Assembly: GCA_024693135.1 (NCBI GenBank)
Contig: JAILLN010000023.1
Coordinates: forward strand, 1-64,000
DNA length: 64,000 bases
Reading direction: 5' to 3'
From: Lachnospiraceae bacterium
GTDB taxonomy: Bacteria; Bacillota; Clostridia; Lachnospirales; Lachnospiraceae
The notes under the pieces are model-generated. The model saw nothing but the letters and a program-made list of their open reading frames with translations, made no database searches and was not told the origin of the DNA. Of the stretch, positions 7,349-28,731 are shown in pieces (the stretch's first letter is position 1; the number at the start of each line of letters is the position of its first letter). The position numbers and the translations under genes were made by a program.

Positions 7349-9346
7349 ATGAACAGAGGGTTGGTGAAGAAAAAGCTGGCCGTGCTTGTGTCTGCGGCAT
7401 GTATACTGTCGGCAGTTCCCACACCGGCATTTGCGTCGGAATCGGCAGATGCGGCGGTTCCGGAGGCGGCAGTGGAAGAAAGCCTGGAGGCGGAAGAGGC
7501 TTCGGCCGGCGTGGTGGTGAGTGATGAGCCTGCCGCACCCGATCAAGGAAACGGAATGGCATTGGATGAAGCAGCGGCGGCTGCCGGATGGGATGAGGAA
7601 ACAAAGGCCTTATACGCAGAGCTTGCCGGTGCTCTCGGGACGGTAAGCACCTATGGCGCGGGCACATCGGATCATCCCGTAGATATTGAATGGGGAACCG
7701 TTTATTCGGGAAACGTCAGCCGGAATGAATCGGTTCCCACAAATTCCTATTATCAGTTTACTCTGGACAAGCCCGGCAGGATCCGGCTGGATACGATTTC
7801 CAATAAGGAGATGGGATGGTATATCCTGAGTGCGGAAAACGGCTGGGATCTGGAGAAACAAAGAGGGCTTTTGTGGACTCCGGCCTTCCCTGAGACTTAT
7901 TATCCGGATAATACAAGCGGCATGAATCCTTATGCGGTGGATCTGATCCCCGGAGATTATTATCTGCTGCTTATCGCGAAGGATTCCTTGGCCAATACCA
8001 CGGTCAACTATGTTTTTTCAATGCGCTTCATCGAGCTTGAGCCGAAATCCGGAGAGAAGCTTCTTTTCGATAATAAGCTCGGAGGATCCAACAATGAGCA
8101 GAAGGATGCCATACCCATCGAGCTGAATACCCAGTATCTGGCCCAGCAGACGGCAGATACCTATCATGAAAATGACTGGTATCAGTTCACTCCCAAGAAG
8201 AAGGTGAAGCTGTATATTACCGCATCCACCCAGCAGGCCGGTCATGTGGACTTTAGTTTTGTCGATGGGGCGGGAAAGATCCAAAGCTATTTCGGAGAGC
8301 CACCTCTGGTCGAAATGGGGCATGGCATCGTCGGATATCCCATTGTCCTGAAAAGTGAGGATTACCTTAAGAAGATGCGCCCCACAACCCTTGAAGCAAA
8401 TAAGACATACTATATCAAGGTGAAGGTCGGTGCCAGGACATCGGCCCAGGTGCAGGGGGAATATACCGGAGGCTACCGGTTCATGTTTTCCACCAAGAAG
8501 CCGAAGCCGGTGAAGAGCATCAAGATCAGCGCCAAGGAGCTGCAGCTTACGCCTGGCTCCATATTCCGGCTGAGTGCTTCCGTATCGCCCAAGGCCGCCT
8601 TTGATACAGGCGTTACATGGTATACGGAGGATCAGAATATCGCCATCGTGGATTATGAAACAGGCATCGTGCAGGTCCCGGAAGGTGCAAAGGCAGGGAG
8701 CAGCACGACGGTCAAGGTCAGAGCCAACCTGCCAAAGGTGAATTATGCTCCGCCCTCCGTGCTGATCAATAAATATGCGGAGGAGACCTGCAAGATCACG
8801 ATCGTCGAAGGAGAGCCGGTATCCGCCAATAAGATCTGCGATCCAATCGTATCCAAGCAGAAGATAGATCTGAGTGAGGAGAAGTTCTTTGGCAAAAAGT
8901 ATGATAAATATGTGGTCACGCCCAAGGACTGCGGCGCAGTGTCCAAGGGAGTGTTTAAGTCCACGAATCCGTCCGAGATCGCTCCGGGAGGCATGGTGAC
9001 GATAACCGGGTTTACCAAATCGGGCAAGAAATATACTGCGGCGTCGACGGTTTCCTTCCGGATACTGGCTCCTGAATATAAGGATAAGAATAAGAGCGGC
9101 AAGCCGGTGAAGACTTATACTTATAAGGAGAAGACGACGGTTTCTTCCGATCATATCATCAGCGTCAACGGCATCAAGGCAGATAAATGGACCCTTAAGG
9201 GGAAGGCTTCGAGCTTCGAGCTGGATGAAAAGACAGGCGTAGTCAAGATACTGAACAGCGGCAGCTGTACGATCACGGCCTGGTACGGAAAGGACAGCTA
9301 TGCCGCCAAATATACGTATACCCTGAAGGCTAAGCTTCCCAAGTAA
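7349..9346 (+). CDS. Secreted protein with prepeptidase-like and Ig-like (Big) domains
   Basis: A 665-residue exported protein. Residues 1-29 are a classic Sec signal peptide (basic MNRGLVKKK, hydrophobic core, cut after AFA). An acidic Ala/Glu-rich linker follows. Two beta-rich modules at about 105-225 and 250-380 share the YYQF/WYQF pattern seen in prepeptidase C-terminal-like domains. About 390-480 is a bacterial Ig-like (Big_2) domain (VKSIKISAKELQLTPGS, then VTWYTEDQNIAIVD). The last 165 residues are further beta-rich Lys-rich sequence. No LPXTG anchor or cell-wall repeat was found, so it is either released or held non-covalently. GGAGG lies eight bases before the ATG. Its function is unknown; adhesion or binding is plausible. 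Confidence 0.75.
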   Translation: MNRGLVKKKLAVLVSAACILSAVPTPAFASESADAAVPEAAVEESLEAEEASAGVVVSDEPAAPDQGNGMALDEAAAAAGWDEETKALYAELAGALGTVSTYGAGTSDHPVDIEWGTVYSGNVSRNESVPTNSYYQFTLDKPGRIRLDTISNKEMGWYILSAENGWDLEKQRGLLWTPAFPETYYPDNTSGMNPYAVDLIPGDYYLLLIAKDSLANTTVNYVFSMRFIELEPKSGEKLLFDNKLGGSNNEQKDAIPIELNTQYLAQQTADTYHENDWYQFTPKKKVKLYITASTQQAGHVDFSFVDGAGKIQSYFGEPPLVEMGHGIVGYPIVLKSEDYLKKMRPTTLEANKTYYIKVKVGARTSAQVQGEYTGGYRFMFSTKKPKPVKSIKISAKELQLTPGSIFRLSASVSPKAAFDTGVTWYTEDQNIAIVDYETGIVQVPEGAKAGSSTTVKVRANLPKVNYAPPSVLINKYAEETCKITIVEGEPVSANKICDPIVSKQKIDLSEEKFFGKKYDKYVVTPKDCGAVSKGVFKSTNPSEIAPGGMVTITGFTKSGKKYTAASTVSFRILAPEYKDKNKSGKPVKTYTYKEKTTVSSDHIISVNGIKADKWTLKGKASSFELDEKTGVVKILNSGSCTITAWYGKDSYAAKYTYTLKAKLPK

Positions 9347-10114: not shown

Positions 10115-10186
10115 TTGTGCGGTAGGAAAAGCCGGGGATGAGCCGGGTTTTTCATTGGGACGGATACAATCATGGAGGAAAACAGT

Positions 10187-13100
10187 ATGGTTCGTGGGAC
10201 AGGAGCAAATGCAAAACAAAAGGTCGGGCTTTTACGGGTGCTGATGATCCTCTGTCTGTCGGCGTCGATGATCATGGGTACGGTACCTTATGAGGCCTAT
10301 GCGGCAGGGGCGGAAGAAGAGGCCTATGCGGCAGAAGAAGATGCCGGAAAGACGGAAGAAAAGACCGTCACAGGCCTGGGCTTGGGGGAGATCAATGGGG
10401 GAACGCTATACCCGTCTGATCCGTCTGATCCCTGGGATGGAGCCTATGTGTTTTTTGGCAAATATGATGGAAAAGCCATGAAGTACAGGGTATTGAGCGC
10501 TCTGAATGAAGCCCGGGGAAAAAAATATGTGCTTTTGGACTGCGATAATGTATTGTATAATGCCAAGTTTGACGGGGATTCAAATATCTGGGCGGAAAGT
10601 GATCCTTTCATAGAAAGCGACATCAGGAAGCAGCTTTATTCTTTTTATAGTGTGGATGGAGTTTTCACCACTGCTGAGAGGGATGCTATCATACCATACT
10701 CCAACAAGTCTTATGAGGCAGACTGGACAGGAGAAAAGTATCCGGATGGAACGTATGAGTATAATGAGCTTTTGGGTGAGGATCCGGCCATTTTGCTGGA
10801 TGTACGGAGCGTGATCGATGATAATCAGGGATATCGAGAAAGTATAGATGCAGCTGCCTGCCGGATAAAAAAGGATCTGGAAGGGAAACCCGCCAAATGG
10901 TGGCTTCGTACAAAAAGCACGGTATCGAAAGATGGTGATCCCTGTGTCTTTAGTGTGGAGCCGGATGGTTCTTTGAGTAAAAACAGTGTAAGGGATGTCA
11001 ATGTCGGAGTAAGCCCCGCCTTCACGATCATGCCTAACAGAGTTATGTTCTCTTCACTGGTCAAAGAAGGAGAGTACAAGCTTACACTTCAAGATGATAA
11101 ACTTCTGTCTGAGCCTCAATGCGGCTTCTGTACAAGGGATGGGAATATAGTCACGATTCCCTATACGTATACAGAAGGCAGCCCCACGCAGCTGTCGGTG
11201 GTTGTGACAAAAAACGGTAAATGGGATGGGAATGAAGGCTGGATGAGGATTACGGATGATGAGGATGCAAAACTGCTTCAATATGCAAAGCTGGACACAG
11301 GGGACAGTCTTGGTCAATATGGTACCGGTACATTTACCCTTGATCCGGCAATACAGGGCGAATGGGGAAAGGATTACCGTGTTTATCTCCTTGCAGAGAA
11401 GGTGAACGGTGCAGATGAGACAGATTATGCCAGTTCACCGATTGAGATCAGACAGCTTGAGGTGGAGGTATCTCAGAGTGAATATACTTATGACGGATTT
11501 GAGCACGGGCTCATTCTGAGCGTCATCGATGCTCCTTACAGTGGAGTAGTGCGTCTGTACGGAGAATCCCCGGACAGCTGTTCATTAAATCGTCTGTTGA
11601 TCAAAAATGTCAGCGAGAGTCCCAAAATGATCTATTATATGGTTAGATCGAATAACTGCCTTACCACAAAAGGCTCTGCGACCTTGAAAATAAATAAAGC
11701 GCCTCTGAACGTCAGCGCGAAAGGCCGGATCCCATATGGTGCTCCCCTGCCGGGAAATTTTGAGCTGGTTTGCGACGGGCTTGTACATGGTGAGGATCCG
11801 TCTGTCCTTAAGGGAACCAAAAACCTGAAGTTTGAAAGCGATTATGTTCCGGGCAGCGATGCCGGAAGGTATGAGGTCAGGATGACGGGGGAACTGACGG
11901 CAGATAACTATGACGTTACACTTACGGAGGGAGCTTTGGAGGTGGTCAGGGCGGATCATCCGGATGAGATTGTCTCCGGAAATGCGGCATACGGCACGGA
12001 AGGCATCCTGGAGCTTAAGGACAAGATCGAAGCCGGGGGAACGCTGGGTGCGGTAAGCGTATCAGAAGATGTATATGAGATATTGGACGGCACGCCTGTC
12101 GCAGCCGATGGGACCAGGATCCGGTTCAAGCTTAAGAATGACCCCGGGAAAGCGGGGAAGAAAGCGAAGGTAGCCGTTTCCGTAAACGGAGCGAAAAACT
12201 ATCTGGATTACCGCATTACGGTGGAGCTGGAGGTTATAAGCTGCGATCATGCGAATAAGGAATTTGTGCCGGGGAGTGCAAGAGCGGCTACCTGTACGGA
12301 GCAGGGCTATGAAGGAGACTATCGGTGCCCTGACTGCGGGGCGCTCATTGAAGGAAAGCATACCCCCATCGATCCGGAGAATCATCATTTCAAAAAGGTG
12401 GGAGTCGTCAAGCCGGCTACTGCGCTCTCAAAGGGAGAGACGAAATACGAGTGCAGCCGCTGTCATACGGAAAGGATCCTTGCCGACATTCCCTGCATCG
12501 AGGAGGAGGGAAAGGATTACGATGATCTGCGGAAGGACCTGGAGAGCCTGAGCGGGGATGCGGCTCCGAAGATCGAGGAAAAGAAGGATGAAAACGGCAA
12601 TGTGGTCGAGGAGACCATAAAGATCGGCGGAGAGGAGATCTCAAAGACGGTCACGGATCCGGAAAGCGGCAAGGAGACCGTGGTATCCAAGGTCTGGATC
12701 GGCGGGCTTTCGGACGCCTATACCTATACGGGCGCCGCCATCAGGCCGCAGATCAATGTCTATGACGGCACAAGGAAGCTTGCCGAAAAGACGGATTATA
12801 CCTTGAAATACACCGATAATAAGGAAGCCGGGACAGCAAGGATCACGATCAGATTCAAGGGGAATTACGGGGATGCCAAGACGGAGACGGTAGAATTCAA
12901 GATAAACCCTGCGGTACTGGGGAAGGATGTCATAGCCCATGAGACCGGAGCCGCAGAAAAGAAGAGCGCCCAGAATCCGGTACCCGTACTGACCTGGAAG
13001 GAGACCGGAAAGACGGTTCCGGCAAAGAATTTTGAGATCAAATATGACCGGACGGTAAAGGAGGCGGGAACCTATACCGCAACCATTACCCCAAAGAATA

Positions 13101-14191
13101 AAAACTTTGAGGGCACCGCCACGGTGGCTGTCCGGATTGCCGAAAAAAACAAGGTGCTCTCCAATGCGAAGGTGAGGTTTGAACCGGCATCCTTCCCGTA
13201 TACCGGGAAGCCGGTTGAGCCGAAGTATTCCCTTATCATGGGGAATGCCACGCTTGCGGAGGGTACGGATTACCGGCGCGTAAGCCTCACCGGCAATACG
13301 AACCCCGGTACGGCTTCCATTATCTTTGAAGCCATAAGCGGAAATGCCGCAGGCTATGTGGGAAGCAGGACGGCTTCCTTTAAGATCACCGGAAAGAGGT
13401 CGCTGAAGGATGGCGCCATCAGCATATCCTGGAATGGAAGCGTTCCCTATTCAAAGGGCGGCGCGGGGACAAAGGTGGTCATCACCGATCAGGATACGGG
13501 AGCCGTTTTGAAGGAAGGAGTGGATTATATCCTGTCCTATTCAAAGAATAAGTCGGTGGGCACGGCGGCCGAGGTCAAAATCAAGGGCAGGGGATATTAC
13601 AAGGATACGGTAAAAAAGAATTATGCCATCGTAAAGCAGAACCTGGCAGCCCTTTCAGCCAATGCCTCCGCACAGGATCAGTTTACGGGAAAGGGAAACC
13701 TGAAGAAAGCTTCGGTCACCATCACGGATCTGGATGGGAAAAAGCTGAAGGCGGGGACGGATTATGAACTGGGCCAGCCGGTTACCGACGCGGAGGGCAA
13801 TACGGATGCAAAGGGAACCGTTTTTGTACCGGTCACGGGCAAGGGAAATTATGAAGGGACACTGACGGCCTCCTTCCGCTATATGCAGGATAAATCCTTC
13901 AATATCAGTAAGGCGAAAGTATTGCAGAAGATCCCGGACCAGACCTATACCGGATATGAAGTCAGGCTTTCCAATGCGGATCTTACCGGGGTGCTTTCCC
14001 TTAACGGGAAAACCCTTGTCCCGGGCACGGATCTCAAGGTCACGGGTTACAGAGGCAATATCAAGAAGGGTACGGCAAAGGTGACGGTACAGGGCTTGGG
14101 AGACTATGCCGGCACAAAGACCATCCCCTTTAAGATCGTACAGAAAGGGGTGGACTATAAGGGGGCTTTGATCGGAGGAACCTTTAAATAA
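10187..14191 (+). CDS. Large secreted repeat protein (DUF6273, MBG-like, Cys-motif and beta-repeat region)
   Basis: A 1334-residue exported protein. The ATG at 10187 is chosen because GGAGG (10174-10178) lies eight bases upstream; an in-frame ATG at 10172 overlaps that site. A signal peptide ends near AYA. Residues about 50-285 resemble DUF6273 (YVFFGKYDGKAMKYRVL, WWLRTKS, VSPAFTI), common in clostridial surface proteins. About 500-590 is an MBG-like beta domain (PLNVSAKGRIPYGAPLPG). About 685-775 has paired Cys motifs (CPDCG, CSRCH) in a CDHANKE context typical of these proteins. From about 840 to the end are roughly six diverged 80-residue beta repeats of the YTYTGAAIRP type. No LPXTG or SLH anchor is visible. 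Probably a cell-surface or matrix protein; its ligand is unknown. Confidence 0.75.
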   Translation: MVRGTGANAKQKVGLLRVLMILCLSASMIMGTVPYEAYAAGAEEEAYAAEEDAGKTEEKTVTGLGLGEINGGTLYPSDPSDPWDGAYVFFGKYDGKAMKYRVLSALNEARGKKYVLLDCDNVLYNAKFDGDSNIWAESDPFIESDIRKQLYSFYSVDGVFTTAERDAIIPYSNKSYEADWTGEKYPDGTYEYNELLGEDPAILLDVRSVIDDNQGYRESIDAAACRIKKDLEGKPAKWWLRTKSTVSKDGDPCVFSVEPDGSLSKNSVRDVNVGVSPAFTIMPNRVMFSSLVKEGEYKLTLQDDKLLSEPQCGFCTRDGNIVTIPYTYTEGSPTQLSVVVTKNGKWDGNEGWMRITDDEDAKLLQYAKLDTGDSLGQYGTGTFTLDPAIQGEWGKDYRVYLLAEKVNGADETDYASSPIEIRQLEVEVSQSEYTYDGFEHGLILSVIDAPYSGVVRLYGESPDSCSLNRLLIKNVSESPKMIYYMVRSNNCLTTKGSATLKINKAPLNVSAKGRIPYGAPLPGNFELVCDGLVHGEDPSVLKGTKNLKFESDYVPGSDAGRYEVRMTGELTADNYDVTLTEGALEVVRADHPDEIVSGNAAYGTEGILELKDKIEAGGTLGAVSVSEDVYEILDGTPVAADGTRIRFKLKNDPGKAGKKAKVAVSVNGAKNYLDYRITVELEVISCDHANKEFVPGSARAATCTEQGYEGDYRCPDCGALIEGKHTPIDPENHHFKKVGVVKPATALSKGETKYECSRCHTERILADIPCIEEEGKDYDDLRKDLESLSGDAAPKIEEKKDENGNVVEETIKIGGEEISKTVTDPESGKETVVSKVWIGGLSDAYTYTGAAIRPQINVYDGTRKLAEKTDYTLKYTDNKEAGTARITIRFKGNYGDAKTETVEFKINPAVLGKDVIAHETGAAEKKSAQNPVPVLTWKETGKTVPAKNFEIKYDRTVKEAGTYTATITPKNKNFEGTATVAVRIAEKNKVLSNAKVRFEPASFPYTGKPVEPKYSLIMGNATLAEGTDYRRVSLTGNTNPGTASIIFEAISGNAAGYVGSRTASFKITGKRSLKDGAISISWNGSVPYSKGGAGTKVVITDQDTGAVLKEGVDYILSYSKNKSVGTAAEVKIKGRGYYKDTVKKNYAIVKQNLAALSANASAQDQFTGKGNLKKASVTITDLDGKKLKAGTDYELGQPVTDAEGNTDAKGTVFVPVTGKGNYEGTLTASFRYMQDKSFNISKAKVLQKIPDQTYTGYEVRLSNADLTGVLSLNGKTLVPGTDLKVTGYRGNIKKGTAKVTVQGLGDYAGTKTIPFKIVQKGVDYKGALIGGTFK

Positions 14192-15510: not shown

Positions 15511-15547
15511 ATAGGGAACGGGACACGACTTGTCGGGGGATCATGCT

Positions 15548-18457
15548 ATGAAAAAGACGTTTCTGCAATCCTGGACGCGATGTCTTTCTTTGATCATCAT
15601 ATTGGCCGCTGCTGTCTTTTGGGCGCCGGATACGGCTTATGCTGACGGCGGAGGAAAGACCGTGCGCGTCGGCTGGTACGAATCACCCTTCAACCGGCTG
15701 GATGAGTCCGGCAGGAGATCCGGCTATGCTTATGATTACCAGCTTAAGCTTGCCGCATATTCCGGATGGGAGTATGAATACGTGAGCGGCAGCTGGCCGG
15801 AGCTCATGCAGATGCTGTCGGACGGAGAGATCGACCTGATGAGCGACGTCTCCTATACGGAGGAGAGGGCCAAGAAGCTGCTCTATCCGGAGCTTCCCAT
15901 GGGGACCGAGGAGTATTTTATTTTCATTGCTCCGGGCAGCCAGAAGATCCATCCCGGGGATCCTGCTTCCTTCAATGGGAAGAGGATCGGTGTGAATAAG
16001 AGCAGCATCCAGGCGGATATCTTCCGGCAGTGGATCGATGAGCAGGGGATCTCCCCGGAGGTCGTGGAGGTTTCGGGCACCGAAGAGAAATCCATCGAGA
16101 TGCTGGAGGACGGGACGCTGGATGCCTTCATCACGCCGGATGCCTACGGTGATGCCGAGCGCATGGTGCCTGTCTTAAAGATCGGATCCTCCGACTTTTA
16201 TTTTGCGGTCAGCGGTCAGCGGCCGGATCTCCTGGAAGAATTAAATGAGGCACTCAGCCGGATCCAGGACGAAAATCCCTATTACAACCAGAGCCTGTAT
16301 AAAAAATATGTCCAAAGCTTCGGAGCCAATGCATTTCTTGCCGCCAAAGAGAGGGAATGGGTCAAATCCCACGGCCCCATACGGGTGGGATATCAGGACA
16401 ATTATCTGGCCTTCTGCGCATCGGATCCGGAGACGGGGGAGCTTACCGGTGCATTGAAGGATTACCTGGATGCCGCCTCGGGGTGCCTGGCGGATACCCG
16501 GCTTGAATTCGAGGCTGTTTCCTTCCCCACGGCGGCGGATGCGCTGGATGCGCTGAAGAGGGGAGAAGTGGACTGCGTCTTTCCGGCCAATTTCAGCGCT
16601 TATGATGGAGAAGACCTGGGCCTTGTCATGACGCCTGCCCTGATGTGCACGGATACCTATGCGGTGGTCCGCCAGTCCGGCCTCAAGATCTTCGTGGACA
16701 GTCCCCATGTGATCGCGGCGGTAAATGAGGGGAATCCGAATTATGAAATGTTTCTCCGGGAGTATTTTCCCGAATGGAAGAAGGCGGTCTTTGCGGACAC
16801 CCCGGCCTGCCTGAAGGCCGTGCGGGACGGGAAGGCAGACCGCATCCTGATCAGCAACTACCGCTTCAACAATATCTCCAGGCTGTGCGACCGGTACCGG
16901 CTGACTACTTATAATACCGGGGTGAGCCTGGATTACTCCTTTGCGATGAAGGAGGGGGAGACGGAGCTTTATTCCGTGATGGCAAAGACCGTGAACCTGG
17001 TGCCGGATTCCTTTGTAAATTCGACGCTTTCCTACTATATCACCGAGGATGCAAAGCGTACCTTCGCTGATTTCCTGATGGACAATCTTCTGGTCGTCCT
17101 GTCCCTTGTGGCGGCCGTGGTCGTCGTCATCCTTCTTCTCCTGTTTAGGAGCATGCGGATGGAGGACAAAGCCAGGCAGCTGATCCTGGCCACAGAGACT
17201 GATGACCTGACGGGCCTCTATAACCGGGATTATTTTTTCCAGTATGCCAACCAGATGTACCGAAACGATCCGGATATCCCCAGGGATGCCGTGGTGGCTA
17301 ATATCGAGCAGTTCCATTCCATCAATGCACTGAATGGGAGGGAGTTCGGAGATCAGGTCTTAAGGGTGCTGGGCACCGAGATCCGAAGCTTCGCCCTAGA
17401 CCATGACGGGATCGGGGGACGCTTCGGGGCAGACCGCTTCGATATCTATTTTCGGCATACGGAGGATTATAAGGCGGTGTATTCCCTCCTCCAGTCCCGG
17501 CTCGACGAGCTGGCGCCGAATGTGAATATCCGCATCCGGATGGGGGTCATGCCCTGGCAGAAAGGGATTGAGCCGGTACAGCTCTTTGACCGGGCCCATA
17601 CCGCCTGCAGCATGGCCAGGGGGCATTACAAGGAGCATCTTATCGTCTTTGACGAAAAGCTGAGGGAGAAGGAGCTTCTGGACCAGCGCCTGCTGAATGA
17701 CCTCCGCCGGGCCCTGGACGGCCATGACTTTGATGTCTACTACCAGCCGAAATATGATATCCAGTCCGAGCCTCCCAGGCTGGTGAGCGCAGAGGCCCTG
17801 ATCCGCTGGAAGCATCCGGAGCTTGGCATGATCCCTCCGGACAGCTTCATCCCTATGCTCGAAAAGAACGGAAAGATCGGAGAGGTGGACAAATACGTCT
17901 GGGGAGAGGCGGCAAGGCAGATCGCCCGGTGGAAGGCGCAGTATGGGGTCACAATCCCGGTTTCCGTCAATCTGTCCCGGGTGGATGTGTTTGATCCGGA
18001 GCTGGAAAAGACCCTGGACGGCATCATCCGGGAAAACCGCCTTGGGAATGACGACCTGAAGCTGGAGGTGACCGAATCCGCATATACCGAAAACGCGGAC
18101 CAGGTGATCCGGGTGGTGACGGGGCTTCATGATAAGGGATATACGGTGGAGATGGATGACTTCGGGACGGGCTACTCCTCCCTGAGCATGCTTTCGGCCA
18201 TGCCCATCGACGTGCTGAAGATGGACAGGACCTTTGTGCGCAATATCGAGCACGACAAGAAGGACATCCAGCTGGTGGCGCTGATCCTGGGGATCGCAAA
18301 AAACATGGATATCCCGGTGATCGCAGAGGGGGCGGAGACCGAGGCGCAGATCAAACTTTTAAGAGAACTTGGCTGTGCGGTGGTCCAGGGGTATTTCTTC
18401 TCGAAGCCCCTGCCTCCGGAGGAATTTGAGGCCCGGTACCTTCGGGGGGAGGCATGA
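15548..18457 (+). CDS. Membrane c-di-GMP phosphodiesterase with two periplasmic-binding domains, degenerate GGDEF and EAL
   Basis: A 969-residue sensor enzyme. A signal peptide (MKKTFLQSW... cut near AYA) leads into two SBP_bac_3-type solute-binding domains (about 35-265 and 275-495) facing outward. One membrane helix follows (about 510-535), then a GGDEF domain (about 550-680) and an EAL domain (about 700-955). The GGDEF signature is GADRF (627-631), so cyclase activity is unlikely. The EAL domain has EAL at 749-751 and DDFGTGYSSL, so c-di-GMP hydrolysis to pGpG is expected. Ligand binding outside probably tunes this. The ATG at 15548 follows a G-rich ribosome site and gives the natural signal peptide. 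A strong terminator follows, so it is monocistronic. Confidence 0.88.
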   Translation: MKKTFLQSWTRCLSLIIILAAAVFWAPDTAYADGGGKTVRVGWYESPFNRLDESGRRSGYAYDYQLKLAAYSGWEYEYVSGSWPELMQMLSDGEIDLMSDVSYTEERAKKLLYPELPMGTEEYFIFIAPGSQKIHPGDPASFNGKRIGVNKSSIQADIFRQWIDEQGISPEVVEVSGTEEKSIEMLEDGTLDAFITPDAYGDAERMVPVLKIGSSDFYFAVSGQRPDLLEELNEALSRIQDENPYYNQSLYKKYVQSFGANAFLAAKEREWVKSHGPIRVGYQDNYLAFCASDPETGELTGALKDYLDAASGCLADTRLEFEAVSFPTAADALDALKRGEVDCVFPANFSAYDGEDLGLVMTPALMCTDTYAVVRQSGLKIFVDSPHVIAAVNEGNPNYEMFLREYFPEWKKAVFADTPACLKAVRDGKADRILISNYRFNNISRLCDRYRLTTYNTGVSLDYSFAMKEGETELYSVMAKTVNLVPDSFVNSTLSYYITEDAKRTFADFLMDNLLVVLSLVAAVVVVILLLLFRSMRMEDKARQLILATETDDLTGLYNRDYFFQYANQMYRNDPDIPRDAVVANIEQFHSINALNGREFGDQVLRVLGTEIRSFALDHDGIGGRFGADRFDIYFRHTEDYKAVYSLLQSRLDELAPNVNIRIRMGVMPWQKGIEPVQLFDRAHTACSMARGHYKEHLIVFDEKLREKELLDQRLLNDLRRALDGHDFDVYYQPKYDIQSEPPRLVSAEALIRWKHPELGMIPPDSFIPMLEKNGKIGEVDKYVWGEAARQIARWKAQYGVTIPVSVNLSRVDVFDPELEKTLDGIIRENRLGNDDLKLEVTESAYTENADQVIRVVTGLHDKGYTVEMDDFGTGYSSLSMLSAMPIDVLKMDRTFVRNIEHDKKDIQLVALILGIAKNMDIPVIAEGAETEAQIKLLRELGCAVVQGYFFSKPLPPEEFEARYLRGEA

Positions 18458-18644: not shown

Positions 18645-18697
18645 GGAAGGTGATTTATTGTGTCATGGACCGGGGAAGGACTTACGGAGCAGAATCG

Positions 18698-20812
18698 ATG
18701 AAGAATAATTTTGGCCGGGAATTCAGGGAAATGTCACATATCATGATGGCGGTATGCGCCTTCTCTGGATCGATCATCATCACCATAATAAACCTGCTGA
18801 AGGGCTGGGATATCTGGACCGTCCCGGTATTTTTGGCAGGAGGCATCCTGTGCGTTGTGATCCATGTGGCCGGGTTTGCGGAGGAGGCCATGCGGCCTTA
18901 TATCTGTGCCGGGGTCATCTTCACGGAGCTTTTTTATTATATCATGAAGGCGGAGGATCCCTATACGGCGGTGCCTGTGGTGGTCCTGGTGATCGTGGTA
19001 ACCTCCTCCATGGAAAGCGCCTATCCCATCTGGTGGACCGTGGCGGTGGGTTTCTTCGGGATCCTGCTCAGGATCTTCCTGCAGTCCGCCAGACAGGGTG
19101 AGCAGCTGCATACCGGGGATACGGTCCGGCTTTTCTGGTATCTGCTCCTGATCTTATCGGCCGGGATGCTGCTTTCCGGGATGAATGTGATGCTCCGCTC
19201 CCTGCAGGCGTTTTATGAGGGAAAGATCCGGGCTCTTCAGGAGGAGACCCGCCTGGCGGATGACTTCATGGCCGGCATCTCCCGGGAGATCAGCATGCCG
19301 GTGGAGGAGTCCATCACCCTGGCCGAGGCTTCCATCCCAAAGGAGCAGGATCCATCCATCCGGGAAAAGCTGCAGTCCATCTGCCTGGCCGGCCGCAGAG
19401 TGACGGACCAGGTGCAGGATGTGGTGGATTTTTCCCAGCTGGAGGTGGGCAGGGTTTCCTATGAGGGGGTGGATTACAGCCTGAAATCCGTGATCGCGGA
19501 GCTTACGGAGAGGCTGCTTCCTTTCAAGAAAAAGGACACCGAGCTTGTGATCGACGTGGATCCTTTTATTCCTGCCATCATCCGGTCAGACCGGGACAAG
19601 GTAGCCAGGGTTCTCTGGCATGTGATCCAGAATGCCCTGAAATATACAGTGGAAGGCGGGGTGTATGTCCGGATCTCCCATGTGCTCCATGACCATGGAA
19701 TGAACCTTGACATCGTGGTCGAGGACTCCGGGGAGGGGATGAACGACGAGGAGCTGGGGCGGATCTATGAGAGATTTTACCGCTCGGAGCAGAAAAAGCA
19801 GATCTCTGCAGAGGGACTCGGCCTCGGCATGCCCATCGTATCCGGCCTGCTGAATGTGCTGGGGGGCTTCATTACCATCGACAGCAGGATAGGGGAAGGC
19901 ACGAAGATCCACATCAGCATTCCCCATGAGATCATCGACCCGAGCCCCTGCATGACCGTCCGGGGGGCAGAGGAACTCAGCATCGGCGGCTATCTGATGT
20001 TTGATAAGTATTCCAATTCGAATGTCCGGGAGTATTACAATGCACTGATGCGGCACATGGTGGGCGGCCTGGGCCTGAAGCTCTACCGGGTAAACAGCAT
20101 GAAGGAGCTGCAGGAGCTCACAGGGAAGCGCTCCCTGACCCATGTCTTCATCGGGGAGGAGCAGTATTGGGAGGATGCGGACTTTGTGGAGTCCCTGGCA
20201 GAACGGCTGAGCGTCGTGTTGATCTGTGACGAGGCCTTCCGGCCGAAGGAGGGGTCCGGAGCCATCCTTCTTGAAAAACCTTTTTACTGCTTCCCGGTGA
20301 TCAGGGTTCTGGAAGGGGAGAAGCCAAAACCCATAAAGGATCCGGAGCCCATAAAGAATCCGGAGCCCATAAAGAATCCGGAGCCGGAGGAGAAAGCGGA
20401 TCCCCGGAAGGAGACGGAGGATGCCGCATCTAAGGCGCTTTATGCCGCCGGCATCGATGTGAAACTGGGGCTGGAATGGTGCATGAACGACCCGGAGCTC
20501 TTCTTAGGGGTCATGCAGGAATTTCTCAATGATTCCCTGGAAAAGAAGGAGGAGCTTGCGCAGTATATGGAGGAAGGGGATACAGAGAATTTTGCCATCC
20601 GGATCCATTCCATCAAAAGCTCCTCGAAGATGATCGGGGCCATGTCCCTGTCTGAGGCCGCGGAGGCTTTGGAGAAGGCGGCCAGGAAGGGAAACCTGGA
20701 TCATATCCGGAAGCATTTCCCGGAATTCATGCCGGAATACGAAAGGGTGCTTTTGGCGATCCGGGCGCATGAGGGCATACAAAAGCCGGAGAGGGAAGGA
20801 GAAGGGGCATGA
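18698..20812 (+). CDS. Degenerate membrane histidine kinase lacking its H-box histidine, with HPt domain
   Basis: A 704-residue protein with five or six N-terminal membrane helices (about 10-160), a dimerisation helix, an ATPase domain, a receiver-like region and an HPt domain. In the H-box the phospho-accepting His is replaced by Arg196 (GISREISMP instead of the usual SHEIRTP). The ATPase retains an N-box (HVIQNALKYT), DSGEGM and GLGLGMP. About 455-535 looks like a receiver without the acceptor Asp (THVFIGEEQ). Three EPIKxP linker repeats lead into an HPt domain with H637 in IRIHSIKSSS. It therefore cannot autophosphorylate in the usual way but can carry phosphate on HPt, perhaps from the kinases encoded next. 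The start at 18698 follows GGAG eight bases upstream; GTG at 18650 and ATG at 18665 are alternatives. The next gene overlaps by ATGA. Confidence 0.82.
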   Translation: MKNNFGREFREMSHIMMAVCAFSGSIIITIINLLKGWDIWTVPVFLAGGILCVVIHVAGFAEEAMRPYICAGVIFTELFYYIMKAEDPYTAVPVVVLVIVVTSSMESAYPIWWTVAVGFFGILLRIFLQSARQGEQLHTGDTVRLFWYLLLILSAGMLLSGMNVMLRSLQAFYEGKIRALQEETRLADDFMAGISREISMPVEESITLAEASIPKEQDPSIREKLQSICLAGRRVTDQVQDVVDFSQLEVGRVSYEGVDYSLKSVIAELTERLLPFKKKDTELVIDVDPFIPAIIRSDRDKVARVLWHVIQNALKYTVEGGVYVRISHVLHDHGMNLDIVVEDSGEGMNDEELGRIYERFYRSEQKKQISAEGLGLGMPIVSGLLNVLGGFITIDSRIGEGTKIHISIPHEIIDPSPCMTVRGAEELSIGGYLMFDKYSNSNVREYYNALMRHMVGGLGLKLYRVNSMKELQELTGKRSLTHVFIGEEQYWEDADFVESLAERLSVVLICDEAFRPKEGSGAILLEKPFYCFPVIRVLEGEKPKPIKDPEPIKNPEPIKNPEPEEKADPRKETEDAASKALYAAGIDVKLGLEWCMNDPELFLGVMQEFLNDSLEKKEELAQYMEEGDTENFAIRIHSIKSSSKMIGAMSLSEAAEALEKAARKGNLDHIRKHFPEFMPEYERVLLAIRAHEGIQKPEREGEGA
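20330..20383 (+). repeat. Three tandem 18-bp units encoding a Pro-rich linker
   Basis: Three consecutive 18-bp units (one base different in the first) encode PIKDPE/PIKNPE hexapeptides between the receiver-like and HPt regions of the degenerate kinase. This is a spacer prone to length change. Confidence 0.85.
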
Positions 20813-23331
20813 GGAAGATTTTCGGGCAGTATAAGAAATACCTCTTCGATCACCGGGAGGATCTGCAGGAGCGGCTATTCGTGCTGCTGACCACCATAGC
20901 CCTCATCGGGCTGCTTGTGGCGTGCCTGACCGGGCTCTTCATCGGGGAAAACTGGATCTCTCTTGCGGGTACCATGGCTTTCTTTTTCCTTTTTGTGGCC
21001 ATCGTGGGCCTGGGCTATCGTTACCGGAAGCTCCGCATCTGTGCGAATTTCCTGGGCAATCTTTTGGTATTTATCTTTTTCCCCCTGATCTTTTTTACCA
21101 GCGGCGGGATCTATGGCGGCCCCACCCTTTGGTTTTTGTTTGCGGTGCTTTATATCGGCATGATCCTTAGGGGGAAGATGCGCATCTTCCTTTTGATCGG
21201 CCAGTTTGTGGTGGCGGCGATCTGCTATTACCTGCAGTATTACGAGCTTGTGGAGGTGGTACCCCATAACCTGGAGGAGTTTTATCTCGATACCATCGGC
21301 TCCTTCATCATCGTGGGGATCATGCTTACGATCCTGGTCAGCTTCCAGACCTATGTCTACCGCATGGAGAATAAAATGGCCCTGTCCCAGAAGGAAGAGA
21401 TCGATGCCTTAAGCAAGGCGCAGAACCGGTTTTTCTCCAGCATGAGCCATGAGATCCGGACTCCCATCAATACCATCATCGGCCTGAATGAGATGATCCT
21501 GCGGGAGGATATCTCTCCGGAGGTAGCAGAGGATGCAAGGAATGTCAGCGCCGCCAGCAAGATGCTGCTGAACCTGATCAATGACATCCTGGATCTGTCC
21601 AGGATCAATGCCAGGCAGATGCGGCTGATGGTGGGGCCATACCGTCCCACGGAAATGATCGCGGACGTGGTGAGCATGATCCAGGTAAGGGCACAGGAAA
21701 AAAAACTGCTCTTTACGGTGAATATCTCCGAAAGCCTTCCTTTAGTCCTGTCGGGAGATGAGGTGAGGATCAAGCAGATCCTGATCAATATCCTGAGCAA
21801 TGCCGTGAAATATACGGAAGAAGGCAGGGTCACCCTGGCGGTGGAATGCGAAGGCCGGGGGAAGGAGACGGAGCTGTGCTTTTCCGTATCCGATACCGGC
21901 ATGGGGATCAAGAAGGAAAACATCCCTTATCTCTTCACGGCCTTCCGCAGGATGGACGAGGACAGGAATAAGCATATCGAAGGCACGGGCCTGGGGCTTT
22001 CCATCGTAAAGCAGCTCCTGGACCTCATGGGAGGCACCGTAAAGGTCAACAGCATCTATCAGAAGGGGACCACCTTTATGATACGGATCCCCCAGGAGGT
22101 CATCAACGAGGATGCGGCAGGGGCGGTGGACCTCAAGAGCATCCAGGATGGGGAAGGCTACAGGCAGAGCTTTGAGGCACCGGATGCAAGGGTGCTGGCG
22201 GTGGATGACACTAAGGCCAATCTCCTGGTGGTCTCCAAGCTTTTGAGGGATACGAAGATCAGCCTGGATACGGCATCCTCCGGGGCGGAAGCCTTAAACC
22301 TTACCCTGCAGAAGGAATACCATGTGATCCTGATGGACCATCTCATGCCCGAGATGGACGGCATTGAATGCATGCACAGGATCCGGGAGCAGGTGGGAGG
22401 CTTAAGCAAGAAGGCCAGGATCGTGGCCCTGACGGCAAATGCGGGAAGGGAAGACCGGGTCCTGTATGAGAGGGAAGGCTTTGACGGATACATGACAAAG
22501 CCGGTGAGCGGGGCGGCCCTGGAATCAGAGCTCTTCCGGCAGCTGCCAAAGCATCTGGTGACCGCCTTCCGGGAGGATATGGAAGAACAGGATACCGTAC
22601 GGTGGCGGCGGGGAGAGAAAAAGAAGCCCTATGCCATCACCATGTCCAGCATCTCGGACCTGCCGAAGGAGCTGGTGGAGAGCGCCCATATCTCGGTGAT
22701 CCCGATCCAGGTGGAGACTGCGAGGGGGTTCTTCCGGGACGGGATCGACCTGGATACGGATGCAGTCCTTTCTTTTATGAATGCCGAAGGGAGGGAAATG
22801 AAGATCCATTCGGCTACGGCCGACGAGCTGGAAGGCTTTTTCTTAAGCAACCTGCAAAGTGCCAATAATGTCATCCATCTGTCCGTATCCAGCGGAGTGG
22901 CGGATACCAGCTACTTTGCGGCCATGGAGGCGAAGCGGGCCCTGGACAATGTGACCGTGGTGGATACGGGGCAGATCTCCTCAGGGCTGGGGCTCATGGT
23001 GCTTGAGGCCTGCCGCATGGCGGAGGAGGAAGCCTCCCTGGAGGAGATCCAGGTGCGGATGGAAGAGATGAGAAACCTGGTCCATACCAGCTTTCTGGTG
23101 GACAATCTGGACCGGCTTGCCGAATCCGGGCAGGTGGGATGGATACTGGAACGGCTTACCAGGGCTTTCATGATCCGCCCGGAGATCCGAATGGAAAAAA
23201 GGAAGGATTCAGGTAGGCAGGCTTTTCTTCGGCTCCAGGGATGCGGCCAGGAGGCAGTATGTGGCGGCCTGCCTGAGGCGTCCCGGAGAGATCGACTTAA
23301 GCAGGCTCTTCATTACCTATGTGGGGCTTGA
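20809..23331 (+). CDS. Hybrid histidine kinase fused to a DegV lipid-binding domain (frame broken near the end)
   Basis: An 840-residue product as read. The first 190 residues have about six membrane helices. HisKA has H214 in SMSHEIRTP; the ATPase has ILSNAVKYT, DTGMGI and GTGLGLS. A receiver follows with AVDD and D510 in MDHLMPEMDG. From about 605 the sequence is a DegV/FakB-type fatty-acid-binding domain: SSISDLPKEL, RDGIDL, SVSSGVADTS, DTGQISSGLGLMVLEA and FLVDNLDRLAESGQVG. After an A6 run at 23195-23200 the frame departs and ends 44 residues later in Arg-rich sequence unlike DegV, while the true DegV end continues in frame +1 to 23479. Kinase-receiver-DegV fusion is unusual and would link lipid binding to phosphosignalling. 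It overlaps the upstream gene by ATGA. Confidence 0.85.
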   Translation: MRKIFGQYKKYLFDHREDLQERLFVLLTTIALIGLLVACLTGLFIGENWISLAGTMAFFFLFVAIVGLGYRYRKLRICANFLGNLLVFIFFPLIFFTSGGIYGGPTLWFLFAVLYIGMILRGKMRIFLLIGQFVVAAICYYLQYYELVEVVPHNLEEFYLDTIGSFIIVGIMLTILVSFQTYVYRMENKMALSQKEEIDALSKAQNRFFSSMSHEIRTPINTIIGLNEMILREDISPEVAEDARNVSAASKMLLNLINDILDLSRINARQMRLMVGPYRPTEMIADVVSMIQVRAQEKKLLFTVNISESLPLVLSGDEVRIKQILINILSNAVKYTEEGRVTLAVECEGRGKETELCFSVSDTGMGIKKENIPYLFTAFRRMDEDRNKHIEGTGLGLSIVKQLLDLMGGTVKVNSIYQKGTTFMIRIPQEVINEDAAGAVDLKSIQDGEGYRQSFEAPDARVLAVDDTKANLLVVSKLLRDTKISLDTASSGAEALNLTLQKEYHVILMDHLMPEMDGIECMHRIREQVGGLSKKARIVALTANAGREDRVLYEREGFDGYMTKPVSGAALESELFRQLPKHLVTAFREDMEEQDTVRWRRGEKKKPYAITMSSISDLPKELVESAHISVIPIQVETARGFFRDGIDLDTDAVLSFMNAEGREMKIHSATADELEGFFLSNLQSANNVIHLSVSSGVADTSYFAAMEAKRALDNVTVVDTGQISSGLGLMVLEACRMAEEEASLEEIQVRMEEMRNLVHTSFLVDNLDRLAESGQVGWILERLTRAFMIRPEIRMEKRKDSGRQAFLRLQGCGQEAVCGGLPEASRRDRLKQALHYLCGA

Positions 23332-23479
23332 CCGGACCGAGCTGGACGAGATCCGGGCTGAAGTAGAAAAGAGGGCGGAGTTTAAGGAGATCTATTTCCA
23401 AAAGGCATCTCCGGGAGTGGCGGTCAACATGGGAGCCGGAGCCTTCGGGCTGATGTACTGCCGGAAGGAAGCGGGCTAA
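23198..23479 (+). pseudogene. Frameshifted DegV C-terminal segment of the preceding kinase
   Basis: In the frame one base after that of the kinase gene, the codons from the A-run onward read KGRIQVGRLFFGSRDAAR, then LFITYVGLDRTEL, then SPGVAVNMGAGAFGL, and stop at 23479. These are the missing last 90 or so residues of a DegV domain. Removing one A from the run at 23195-23200 joins them to the upstream domain and gives a protein of about 889 residues. The HxGPG block that closes the lipid pocket in FakB proteins here has Asn in place of His (VNMGAGA). Cause: genuine mutation, slippage, or a base-call error. Confidence 0.75.
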
Positions 23480-23512: not shown

Positions 23513-26500
23513 ATGAGAAAGGGCGTTTTTAATTCTACCAATATCTATATCAAAAATCTTCTGTTTTCGGTGCTGGTCATCACTTTTTTTGTGGGCATCA
23601 TCCTGGCATACAACAGCATCCTGTACAGGGAAGAAAAAAACAACATCATAAGGAATGGCGAAATGACGGCCATGCAGTCGGCGGATGAATTTGAGGATTA
23701 CCTGATCACGAGCATAGACGCCATAAACCTGGCGGGGTATTCCCTGGAAATCATGATCCGGGAAAAAAGCACCCATGATGAGATCCTGGACTTTGTCTTA
23801 AGTGAATCCGAAACCATCACGAATGCTGTTTTTGAAAATACCACGGGCCTCTATGCGTATATCGAAGGAGAGTACTATGACGGGGCCGGCTGGATCCCGG
23901 ATGAGGATTTCGAACCCACGAAGCGCCCCTGGTATTCCCGGGCGTTACAGGGAAAGGGGCAGGTGGTGCTGGTGGATCCTTATCTGGATCTCCATACCGG
24001 CACGGTGATGATGACCCTGGCCAAGTGCCTGAGCGACGGGGAGAGCGTGGTCGCCATGGACGTCACCTTGGACCGGCTGCAGGAGATCACCGAGGAGGCA
24101 GTGCGGATCGGGGATTCGGACATGGAGATGATCCTGGACAGCAGGCATGTGGTGGTGGCCCATTCCTCCCGGGAGGAAGTGGGCAGGAGCTACCGGAACG
24201 AGAGAGATACCATAGGAGCCGCCATAGATGCCAACCTGCATACGGATCAGAGCGGGTTCTTTGAGTTTGATCATGAAAGCACCCATTATATCGCGTATTC
24301 CCGGACCTTTTCCAACGACTGGCACTGCATTTCCGTACAGAATGCCACCAAGGTTTACAACCCTTTAAGGGTGATCCTGGTGATCACGATCCTGCTGGTG
24401 GTGATCATCGTGCTTGTGCTTTCCTCCATCCTGTACAGCTCCAGCAGGCGGGAGCTGCAGGCAGAGAAGCTGAATGCCCAGCTTTCTTCCACGGCGGATA
24501 TTTATCTTTCCGTGCATGAGATCGATATCATAAATGATACCTTCTCCGAGATCCGGGTCAATGAAAGCAGTGTATCGGATTATCTGAAGGACAACCGGGA
24601 GAATGCCCAGGAGACCTTCTATGGGATCATGGACGCGCTGACGGACCCCTCCTCCAAGGATGAGGTTTTCCGGTTCATCGACCTGTCCACCCTGGAGGAG
24701 AGGATGAAGGGCCAGAACAGCATCATCATCGAATTTCTGGATGTGGACCACTTCTGGCTCAGGGCCAGGTTCGTCGTATCCCGGAGGACGCCGGAGGGAC
24801 GGATCTCCCATGTGATCTGGCTGGTGGAGAGCATCGATGAGGAGAGGAAAAACCGGGAGAAGCTCATCGACATCTCCCAAAGGGCCATAGCCGCAAGCGA
24901 GGCAAAATCCGCCTTCCTGTCCAATATCTCCCATGAGATCCGCACCCCCATCAATGCGGTGCTGGGCATGAACGAGATGATCTTAAGGGAATGCGGGGAT
25001 GAAAACATCCTTGCTTACGCAGACAGCATTCGGACGGCCGGCAATACCCTGCTGGGGCTGATCAACGATGTGCTGGATTTTTCCAAGATCGAGGCGGGCA
25101 AGATGGAGATCCTTCCGGTGGATTACGGCCTCTCCTCGGTGATCAATGACCTGGTCAATATGATCCAGACCAGGGCGGATGAAAAGGGCCTGGCCCTGAA
25201 GCTGGATTTTGATCCCGGGATCCCCAACCGGCTTTTGGGGGATGAGGTGCGGATCAAGCAGGCCGTCACCAATATCCTTACCAATGCGGTGAAGTATACG
25301 GATAAGGGGAGCGTTACCTTTTCCATCGGCTATGAAAGGCTTCCGGAGGAGCCGGACAGCGTGATGCTCTGCTTTGCCGTGGAGGATACCGGCATCGGCA
25401 TCCGGAAGGAGGATATGCAGAGGCTCTTTTCGGAGTTTGAGCGGATCGATGAGGAGCGTAACCGCTATGTGGAGGGTACGGGCCTCGGCATGAATATCAC
25501 CAAGAGCCTGCTGGAGCTCATGGGCTCCTCGCTGAAGGTGGAGAGCACCTACGGCAAGGGCTCCCGGTTTCATTTCAAGCTGAAGCAGAAGGTGCTCCAG
25601 TGGGATCCCATGGGAGATTACGAGGCATCCTACCGCGCATCCCTTCTGGAGCGTGACCGGTATCAGGAGAAATTCACGGCTCCGGAAGCCAGGGTATTGG
25701 TGATCGATGATACCAGCATGAACCTCATGGTCTTCAAGAGCCTTTTGAAGAAGACCCGGGTAAAGATCGAAACGGCCCTCAGCGGGGATGAGGGACTTTC
25801 CATGGCCTGCGATAAGAAGTACGATATGATCTTTTTGGATCATATGATGCCGGAAAAGGACGGGATCGAGACCCTGCATGAATTGCAGGAGATGACAGAA
25901 AATCCCAATCTCCATACGCCGGTCATCTGCCTGACGGCAAATGCCATTTCCGGCGCCAGGGAGAAGTATCTGGAGGAGGGCTTCACGGATTACCTGACGA
26001 AGCCCATTGACTCCGCAAGGCTGGAGGACATGCTTTTGACCTATCTGCCGGAGGATAAGATCAGGGAGCCGGAGGCGGACGCAAAGGAGGCCCTGTCGGA
26101 GGACAGGGAGGGGATCCCGGATTTTGTGGGCCGGATCACTGAGCTGGACCTGTCCCTCGGCCTTCAGAATAATAACGATCCGGCCTCCTATGTGGAGGTG
26201 ATGGCCGCCTTTTCGGACATGTCCGGATCCTATGCCCGGGACATCGAGGCTTTTCTTGAAGAGAGGGATTTTGAAAATGCCACCATCCGGATCCATGCCT
26301 TAAAAAGCTCTGCCCGGATCATCGGCGCCGTAGAGCTTGGGGATATGGCAGAGAGGATGGAGGAGGCTTCAAGGAAGCGGGATGCAAAGGCGCTGAGGCA
26401 GGAGATCCCGGAGCTTTTGCGCCGGACGAGGAAGCTGGGAGAGGAGCTTTCGTCATTAAAGGAAGAGGAGGACCCGAAGGAGGATCTGCCTCCCGTCACG

Positions 26501-26692
26501 GCGGAAAAGCTGAAGGAATCCTACGAGATGATCCGGCGCTATCTGGAAGAGGGGGAATATGACCTGGCCGAAAGGAAGATCGGAGAGCTTGCCGGAAGGG
26601 CCGTGCCGGAAGCGGAAAAGGAACGCTTTTCGGCCTTAAAGCAGGCTATAGAGGATTATAATTATGACAAGATCCCGGAGATCCTGTCATGA
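23513..26692 (+). CDS. dCache hybrid histidine kinase with receiver and HPt domains
   Basis: A 1059-residue complete phosphorelay protein. One membrane helix (about 13-33) leads to an extracellular dCache sensor (about 40-275; RPWYSRALQGKGQVVLVDPY is typical) and a second helix (about 285-308). A PAS-like region follows. HisKA has H474 in NISHEIRTP; the ATPase has ILTNAVKYT, DTGIGI and GTGLGM. The receiver has D776 in LDHMMPEKDG and the HPt domain has H928 in IRIHALKSSA. Phosphate can pass His-Asp-His within the one chain. The final regulator is not encoded nearby; with the degenerate kinase and the DegV-fused kinase upstream it may form one network. GGAG precedes the ATG, 33 bases after the end of the frameshifted DegV segment. 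Confidence 0.9.
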   Translation: MRKGVFNSTNIYIKNLLFSVLVITFFVGIILAYNSILYREEKNNIIRNGEMTAMQSADEFEDYLITSIDAINLAGYSLEIMIREKSTHDEILDFVLSESETITNAVFENTTGLYAYIEGEYYDGAGWIPDEDFEPTKRPWYSRALQGKGQVVLVDPYLDLHTGTVMMTLAKCLSDGESVVAMDVTLDRLQEITEEAVRIGDSDMEMILDSRHVVVAHSSREEVGRSYRNERDTIGAAIDANLHTDQSGFFEFDHESTHYIAYSRTFSNDWHCISVQNATKVYNPLRVILVITILLVVIIVLVLSSILYSSSRRELQAEKLNAQLSSTADIYLSVHEIDIINDTFSEIRVNESSVSDYLKDNRENAQETFYGIMDALTDPSSKDEVFRFIDLSTLEERMKGQNSIIIEFLDVDHFWLRARFVVSRRTPEGRISHVIWLVESIDEERKNREKLIDISQRAIAASEAKSAFLSNISHEIRTPINAVLGMNEMILRECGDENILAYADSIRTAGNTLLGLINDVLDFSKIEAGKMEILPVDYGLSSVINDLVNMIQTRADEKGLALKLDFDPGIPNRLLGDEVRIKQAVTNILTNAVKYTDKGSVTFSIGYERLPEEPDSVMLCFAVEDTGIGIRKEDMQRLFSEFERIDEERNRYVEGTGLGMNITKSLLELMGSSLKVESTYGKGSRFHFKLKQKVLQWDPMGDYEASYRASLLERDRYQEKFTAPEARVLVIDDTSMNLMVFKSLLKKTRVKIETALSGDEGLSMACDKKYDMIFLDHMMPEKDGIETLHELQEMTENPNLHTPVICLTANAISGAREKYLEEGFTDYLTKPIDSARLEDMLLTYLPEDKIREPEADAKEALSEDREGIPDFVGRITELDLSLGLQNNNDPASYVEVMAAFSDMSGSYARDIEAFLEERDFENATIRIHALKSSARIIGAVELGDMAERMEEASRKRDAKALRQEIPELLRRTRKLGEELSSLKEEEDPKEDLPPVTAEKLKESYEMIRRYLEEGEYDLAERKIGELAGRAVPEAEKERFSALKQAIEDYNYDKIPEILS

Positions 26693-27825: not shown

Positions 27826-28731
27826 ATGCTGAAGGGAATCGTATATGCCATGATCGCCATGGGGGCCATGATCATGGTAACCAATATCTGGCGCTATGAT
27901 TTTCTCGTGCGGCGCTCAGAGGATGTGCTTTCCTCCGAAAACCCCAGGGGCCGGTTCTGGGTGAACCTGGCATTTTTGCTGCTGATCTTTTTCCTGATAG
28001 GATATCTGGGGATCGCGGTCTTCGGAAAGCCGGACCTTCTGGTGGGCGGCGTGCTTTTCGGCGGGAGCGTTTTTGTCGCCATCATCATCACCCTGATCGT
28101 CCATCTGATGGATACGGTGAAGGCGCGGAGCATCGATATCGTGGAGACGCTGATCGACGTGATCGAGGCCAGGGACCCGAACCTCAACGGCCACAGCCGG
28201 TATGTGCAGAATCTGACCGTATGCTTCTTTAAGCATATCCCTTCGGAAATGAAGGAAGAGATCAGCCCGGTGAGCATGGAATATGCGGCGCTCCTCCATG
28301 ACGTAGGCAAGCTCGGCATCCCCGAGAGCATATTGAATAAGCCCGGGAAGCTGGACAAGGAGGAGTGGGAGGTCATGAAGGAGCATCCGAGGAAGGGGGT
28401 GCGGATCCTGATGAAGCTCAAATCCTTTGCCCATGTCCTGCCCTGGATCGAATACCACCATGAGAGGATGGACGGGAAGGGATATTACGGCATTCCCGGA
28501 GGCCAGATCCCCTTTTCCTCCAGGGTGATCGCCGTGGCGGATACCTATGCCGCCATCACCATGGTCCGGTCCTATAAGCCGGCCAGGAGCCATGAGGATG
28601 CCATCCGGATCCTGCAGGACGTGGCAGGCACCCAGCTGGACCGGGACCTGGTGGATATTTTCTGTAGGATCCCCAAGGAGGAGCTGCAGGGCTGCGTGCC
28701 GGAGAATGTGGATGTGGAAAGCATATTTTAG
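27826..28731 (+). CDS. HD-GYP domain membrane phosphodiesterase
   Basis: A 301-residue protein with two membrane helices (about 1-20 and 40-60, with a third possible at 65-88) followed by an HD-GYP domain. Metal ligands and signature are visible: NGHSRYVQN, ALLHDVGKLGIP (the HD pair), HPRKGVRIL and HHERMDGKGYYGIPG, where the GYP motif reads GYYG. Such enzymes hydrolyse c-di-GMP, usually to GMP, although the altered Pro leaves specificity open. GGAGG lies eight bases before the ATG. It sits just before topA's own promoter and probably ends the kinase-aminotransferase transcription unit. With the upstream EAL protein this is the second c-di-GMP-degrading gene before the flagellar array. Confidence 0.88.
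   Translation: MLKGIVYAMIAMGAMIMVTNIWRYDFLVRRSEDVLSSENPRGRFWVNLAFLLLIFFLIGYLGIAVFGKPDLLVGGVLFGGSVFVAIIITLIVHLMDTVKARSIDIVETLIDVIEARDPNLNGHSRYVQNLTVCFFKHIPSEMKEEISPVSMEYAALLHDVGKLGIPESILNKPGKLDKEEWEVMKEHPRKGVRILMKLKSFAHVLPWIEYHHERMDGKGYYGIPGGQIPFSSRVIAVADTYAAITMVRSYKPARSHEDAIRILQDVAGTQLDRDLVDIFCRIPKEELQGCVPENVDVESIF

Follow-up and report, generated by a model that had tools for sequence, protein, structure and literature searches.

A membrane-kinase pair with one member ending in an altered DegV domain in gut and rumen bacteria

We report on two membrane kinases that occur as a matched set in many gut and rumen bacteria; one of the two terminates in an altered DegV domain. The case analysed here lies in a stretch of 64,000 nt (from here: the window), positions 1 to 64,000 of contig JAILLN010000023.1 from a Lachnospiraceae bacterium (assembly GCA_024693135.1). 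On balance, we regard its DegV kinase gene as the hybrid-kinase half of a two-protein, RcsC/RcsD-like phosphorelay in which c-di-GMP is the usual output and DegV serves for sensing or docking. If true, common gut and rumen bacteria would have a link from lipid or metabolite status to c-di-GMP. The reciprocal placement of a single HPt domain is a natural experiment, in which two hybrid kinases would act as one relay, and the clear Asn/His residue swap in DegV allows a direct test.

Background

To our knowledge, DegV domains have not been described before as signalling parts of a kinase. No paper on a kinase-DegV fusion was found in the literature searched, with most subscription papers lying outside it. 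The available parts of four DegV accounts (PMC3146951, PMC12688256, PMC9912610, PMC3091722) contain nothing on a kinase fusion, and the available text of PMC12288450 mentions DegV only as a possible component of multidomain proteins. The fatty acid-binding FakB proteins use the headgroup residues Thr62, Ser95 and His270 and the catalytic Arg173 (numbering as in the accessible part of PMC8892158), and Arg173 is required with FakA (PMC9136124, part of the text).

In the Rcs system, RcsD has no kinase activity and carries an HPt domain between RcsC and RcsB (PMC5651002, available sections). In PvrSR/RcsCB of Pseudomonas aeruginosa and CblST of Burkholderia two sensor kinases share one HPt, and the PvrSR/RcsCB cluster includes an EAL-type c-di-GMP response regulator (PMC3842833, available sections).

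Results and discussion

The kinase-receiver-DegV architecture is confirmed in the window. The in-frame part of the gene (20809..23331, plus strand, as are all window features given coordinates between positions 15530 and 26692; 840 aa) encodes a membrane region, HisKA, HATPase, a receiver and two thirds of DegV. Pfam placed HisKA at residues 204-268 (21418..21612; E 3.1e-16) with His214 (codon 21448-21450), HATPase_c at residues 316-430 (21754..22098; E 1.4e-28), Response_reg at residues 462-573 (22192..22527; E 2.5e-19) with Asp510 (codon 22336-22338), and the first two thirds of DegV at residues 609-798 (22633..23202; profile 3-194 of 280, E 1.3e-29). A Kyte-Doolittle scan found five hydrophobic stretches N-terminal to residue 190. 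HisKA with its His, HATPase and a receiver with its Asp, the marks of a hybrid histidine kinase, are hence joined in one chain, and Pfam and the hydropathy scan agree with the earlier note, which had read the same domains and residues, with DegV following the receiver, from the letters. The DegV piece passes the family cut-offs of Pfam PF02645 (103.9 versus 27 bits) and of TIGR00762 (116 versus 99.7), and four unbroken relatives score 121-152 bits with the Pfam model.

The reading frame breaks near 23190-23215, and the rest of DegV is readable in 23189-23479. A profile made from 22 relatives, searched against the two pieces separately with the frame left uncorrected, matched with positions 3-194 at 22633-23208 and with positions 189-280 at 23192-23467; the domain is therefore complete and split over two frames, which bears out the full DegV fold claimed before. 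A Pfam search of the second-frame stretch 23204-23479 alone gave no match. Within the last third (23192..23479, by profile match), the motif AVNMGAGAFG has Asn in place of the closing His of the HxGPG block, the FakB His270 position. The frame break may be a sequence error or a real mutation, and the gene may be broken in the window.

The fusion is widespread. The view that the arrangement is uncommon did not survive a look at the window's own genome (3.19 Mb, 67 contigs, 88% complete), in which eight DegV matches comprise four lone proteins of ~300 aa and four long open frames of 852 (window), 931, 1150 and 1175 aa. The three other long-frame paralogues are unbroken and have the kinase-receiver-DegV order, two of them with an HPt behind DegV. 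Among 48 genomes of the window's genus, DegV was matched at E 1e-3 in 47, lone DegV included, and at least 35 had open frames of ≥700 aa. Three complete genomes of the genus (G001, G004, G005) had frames of lone-DegV size only, among the matches listed, so the fusion is not universal in the genus. Long DegV frames of this kind occurred in 34 genomes from a draw of 200 of the family and in at least three genomes, all from the window's family, from a phylum draw of 299.

The search for the same architecture in relatives, which the earlier note had proposed, was run on named genomes and yielded 211 relatives. Counts rest on the best 80 of 211, consisting of 55 Lachnospiraceae, 8 Oscillospiraceae, 5 Eubacteriaceae, 9 without a family and 3 spirochaetes. 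The complete kinase-receiver-DegV architecture was present in 77 of these 80 loci; L099 and L120 begin at a contig end, and the frame of L081 is broken. Carriers with an intact DegV domain include Mediterraneibacter agrestimuris DSM 111629 (L055) and Ruminococcaceae YRB3002 (L083). Because unbroken relatives exist, the fusion is not an assembly artefact, and a chance or assembly fusion was rejected on the 77 full-length loci, as was rarity of the fusion on the four copies in one genome and the many relatives. Homologues are not always separate genes; unfused DegV next to a kinase was seen in L158 and L159.

The DegV kinase does not stand alone. Directly upstream in the window lies a partner gene (18650..20812), overlapping the kinase gene by 4 bases and encoding a membrane protein with HATPase. 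According to Pfam and alignment, the partner lacks the H-box His (SREISMP) as well as a receiver match, and carries an HPt domain (RIHSIKSS; 20510..20722). A kinase-like gene ≤400 bases upstream on the same strand accompanies 82 of 111 DegV kinases. The gap is an overlap of exactly 4 bases in 39/83 cases and lies between -60 and +40 in 78/83. Duplicate loci were removed before counting, 10 for the pairing, class B and upstream-gene counts and 11 for the gap counts and the His/Asp counts of the DegV kinases. The 29 of 111 DegV kinases without a scorable partner include 21 too near the locus end, two with a cut partner in which the HPt is seen (L088, L111), one in which no partner was found (L042), two that are themselves broken (L019, L081) and three with no kinase-like gene within 400 bases (L152, L153, L154).

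The pairs fall into two classes. Class A combines an HK-(REC)-HPt partner with a DegV protein whose last domain is DegV, and class B combines an HK-REC partner with an HK-REC-DegV-HPt protein. Of the 82 pairs, 71 carry the HPt on the partner alone and 10 on the DegV protein alone; none has it on both, and a single pair (L119) has it on neither, with an HPt motif lying behind the partner in a shifted frame. HPt position needs only two changes on the tree, of which well-supported branches force one, so the 82 pairs are not independent. Partner kinase, shared HPt and the c-di-GMP neighbours described below are additions to what the earlier note had seen.

Extra HPt proteins exist at some loci, such as a Cache-HPt protein beside L117 and a REC-HPt protein beside L051. 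The latter (L051 1113-2147) overlaps the start of an RcsD-like partner, giving two HPt domains at that locus. In the window, the next gene downstream (23513..26692, Pfam) encodes a Cache-like sensor with HK-REC-HPt, a neighbour and putative member of the module.

The relay residues of the DegV kinases are almost invariant: the kinase His is kept in 101/105, the other four being gaps, and the Asp in 105/105. Among partners, the kinase His is kept in 74/79; it is lost in the window, L032, L051 and L085, and L082 is cut. Scoring the His by a simple pattern had also flagged L062, L082 and L092; alignment showed L062 and L092 to be intact. The four partners that lost the His have no receiver match either, and all keep the HPt His. 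On the tree, window/L032 and L051/L085 underwent these losses independently; the two events are both required even when only supported branches count.

The window gene might be a decaying pseudogene in a module on its way out, given the frame break in DegV and a partner devoid of kinase His and receiver. We consider this unlikely. The kinase His and Asp and the HPt His of the partner are intact in the window, and the partner losses are common to L032, which sits closest to the window on the tree and has an intact DegV gene, so these losses are older than the frame break.

The RcsD-like state, a membrane partner with HPt and without kinase His, holds for the window and for 4/79 partners overall, and by analogy points to a flow from the DegV kinase to the partner HPt. 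In the two-protein relay that we favour, the DegV kinase would autophosphorylate on His214 and pass the phosphoryl group to Asp510 of its own receiver. From there it would move to the single HPt of the pair, in the window that of the partner (20510-20722), and on to a separate response regulator.

The resemblance to Rcs consists in a hybrid kinase joined by a second membrane protein with HPt, and the window partner is in the RcsD state. Unlike in Rcs, most partners here keep His and receiver, the HPt can sit on the other partner, and the neighbours are often c-di-GMP regulators; moreover, we know of no DegV domain in Rcs. The window protein reaches 211 bits with the NCBIfam RcsC model, below the cut-off of 920; it would work like RcsC without being RcsC. 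With PvrSR/RcsCB the module has in common two kinases, one HPt and a c-di-GMP regulator beside them (available sections of PMC3842833). There, however, the target of both kinases is RcsB, a predicted DNA-binding protein, and not the EAL protein, and DegV does not figure in the descriptions of PvrSR/RcsCB and CblST in those sections. The kinase and receiver region comes closest to the NCBIfam BarA and TorS models, below their cut-offs. Unlike in the HK-REC-HPt proteins of the BarA/TorS/ArcB type, DegV here replaces or precedes the HPt, and a dedicated partner kinase is present.

A candidate response regulator lies next to many pairs. A co-oriented gene for a receiver plus HD-GYP or GGDEF is found directly upstream in 36 of the 67 class A modules with upstream sequence. 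All except one of the 36 are within 40 bases of the module (35/36); 18 are complete REC-HD-GYP genes and 17 run off the fetched locus. One of them, L029, belongs to the window's own genome. The HD-GYP, GGDEF and EAL models were built from 2, 3 and 1 sequences, respectively, and examples were checked with Pfam, which gave REC-HD_5 in L029 and L152 and REC-GGDEF in L158, L170 and L083. L041 is a further locus with a receiver-HD-GYP protein. In the remaining 31/67 class A modules, the window included, the position directly upstream is not taken by a co-oriented receiver plus c-di-GMP gene; Pfam-checked upstream genes in other modules of this group include rho, a transporter and GntR. In class B, a receiver protein of ~252 aa occurs in 9/10 loci; three of the ten (L102, L103 and L113) are near-copies.

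The 36 receiver-HD-GYP/GGDEF neighbours suggest a c-di-GMP output for class A as a group, and least so for the window's copy. In many relatives the upstream receiver-HD-GYP or receiver-GGDEF protein would receive the phosphoryl group from the HPt, and the usual output would be a change in c-di-GMP. In the window, a solute-binding-GGDEF-EAL protein without a receiver (15530..18457) is encoded 192 bases upstream of the partner; it is a putative module member and a possible c-di-GMP link of the window module. The window's genome has 17 HD_5 matches, 16 of them above the cut-off.

Downstream of the kinase module, the window encodes a lone HD-GYP protein (27826-28731), followed by topoisomerase, codY and flagellar genes (FliF, FliI-type ATPase, FlgE/F/G-type, FliM, FlhA) at 28834-55052; by predicted gene content this is a c-di-GMP and motility neighbourhood. 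Upstream of the module, 7349-9346 and 10172-14191 encode large Big_2 plus MBG_2 proteins, perhaps surface proteins.

What does DegV contribute? Thr62, Ser95, Arg173 and His270 are all kept in 0/111 kinase-fused domains versus 43/46 other DegV domains, 30 of which (L121-L150) are the best Pfam scorers and bias the comparison towards canonical members. The 46 are what remains of 51 after removal of L099 and L120 (cut fused copies), L158 and L159 (kinase-adjacent) and L156 (a FakA-like fusion). Arg173 is kept in 26/111 fused domains and His270 in none, while Thr or Ser is at position 62 in 83/111. The Asn at the His270 position, which the earlier note had spotted in the window, proved to be a family feature: among 109 fused rows, this position is N in 102, T in 4, and S, Y and L in one each, with no H, the 109 being the 111 minus the window, which shows G because its in-frame ORF has left the DegV frame at this point, and the cut L069. 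The Asn is invariant in 52 A3 rows, a chosen part of 78 that leaves L097 (Tyr) outside, and is also present in the DegV domains of L158, L159 and L156. At the FakB Arg205 position, 69/111 have Arg or Lys three columns further, in a loosely aligned region. NCBIfam FakB1 was outside the best 25 of 136-147 families for the fused proteins, and the unfused L159 and L158 score 91.9 and 73.2 bits versus its cut-off of 350.

Compared with FakB (PF02645; S. aureus FakB1, PDB 5uto), DegV here differs in being fused to a kinase and in never keeping all four residues. Lipid presentation in the FakB sense, as envisaged earlier, does not fit these residues, and a plain FakB role was rejected. The residue counts suggest that the fused DegV probably serves in sensing or docking rather than as a FakB carrier.

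DegV could instead be an output, with receiver phosphorylation gating a carrier of lipids for FakA and hence for lipid synthesis. DegV does sit after the receiver, the usual place of an output domain, and the window's genome has one FakA match; yet the FakB residues are not retained together, four lone DegV proteins in the same genome are available for the FakA role, and the HPt behind DegV in class B means that the relay continues. We therefore hold this to be very improbable.

Without FakA-catalysis and fatty-acid headgroup residues, DegV would most likely sense a cytosolic ligand, perhaps an acyl-like one; alternatively, it would dock a partner, and either way it would tune phosphate flow. 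As a structural part that docks the kinases, the HPt or the regulator, DegV would have no ligand that matters. The loss of FakB residues, the exchange of places between DegV and HPt across the pair and the tether are compatible with this: in a REC-DegV model (pTM 0.64), the linker at residues 133-149 is predicted with low confidence, so no rigid or fixed coupling is visible. However, the full DegV fold is kept in the structure model of a relative, and T/S at position 62 together with Asn at the His270 place (102/111) suggests a selected pocket. We give pure docking about one chance in four in plain terms of belief, that is, we doubt it without dismissing it.

Equally tentative is a more specific form of sensing, in which DegV, with Asn for His and Arg mostly lost, is a cytosolic receptor for an acyl ligand and sets c-di-GMP through the two-kinase, one-HPt relay. 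If that were true, gut and rumen bacteria would translate lipid status directly into motility or attachment, and the proteins would be a sensory class that is widespread and so far undescribed.

In a tree of 98 rows, with 47 of the 111 fused domains and made by a quick method without bootstrap, all 47 fused rows fall to the same side of a branch with SH-aLRT 94. Nearest to them are the unfused DegV domains of L158 and L159 (SH-aLRT 99), both encoded directly after an HK-REC-HPt gene with overlap; in L159 the lone DegV overlaps it by 4 bases, and in L158 the order is HK-REC-HPt, lone DegV and REC-GGDEF. The simplest reading is that a FakB-like protein was recruited as its own gene beside a kinase, changed, and then fused once, an order of events suggested by these sequences.

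DhaQ, the DhaK-like co-activator of the L. lactis dha operon, has a related fold but is a distant fold relative. It acts through a transcription activator, unlike DegV here, which is part of a histidine kinase.

Three spirochaete loci (L042, L043, L058) are kinase-DegV genes in Treponema and Spirochaetaceae bins, with L043 on a 343-kb contig. Their sequences fall among clostridial ones on the tree, which suggests transfer between rumen phyla, with the caveat that the loci come from metagenome bins. The protein at L153 4790-7378 has HATPase and DegV without a HisKA or receiver match and appears to be a decayed or altered form of the DegV kinase. DegV is also fused to other partners. L156 5117-6901 encodes a 594-aa protein of the order Dak2-FakA middle-DegV, in which Asn occupies the place of FakB His270, a DAK2/DegV protein being named already in a table of PMC3091722 (available part), and L157 5160-6830 encodes a HAD hydrolase-DegV fusion of 556 aa.
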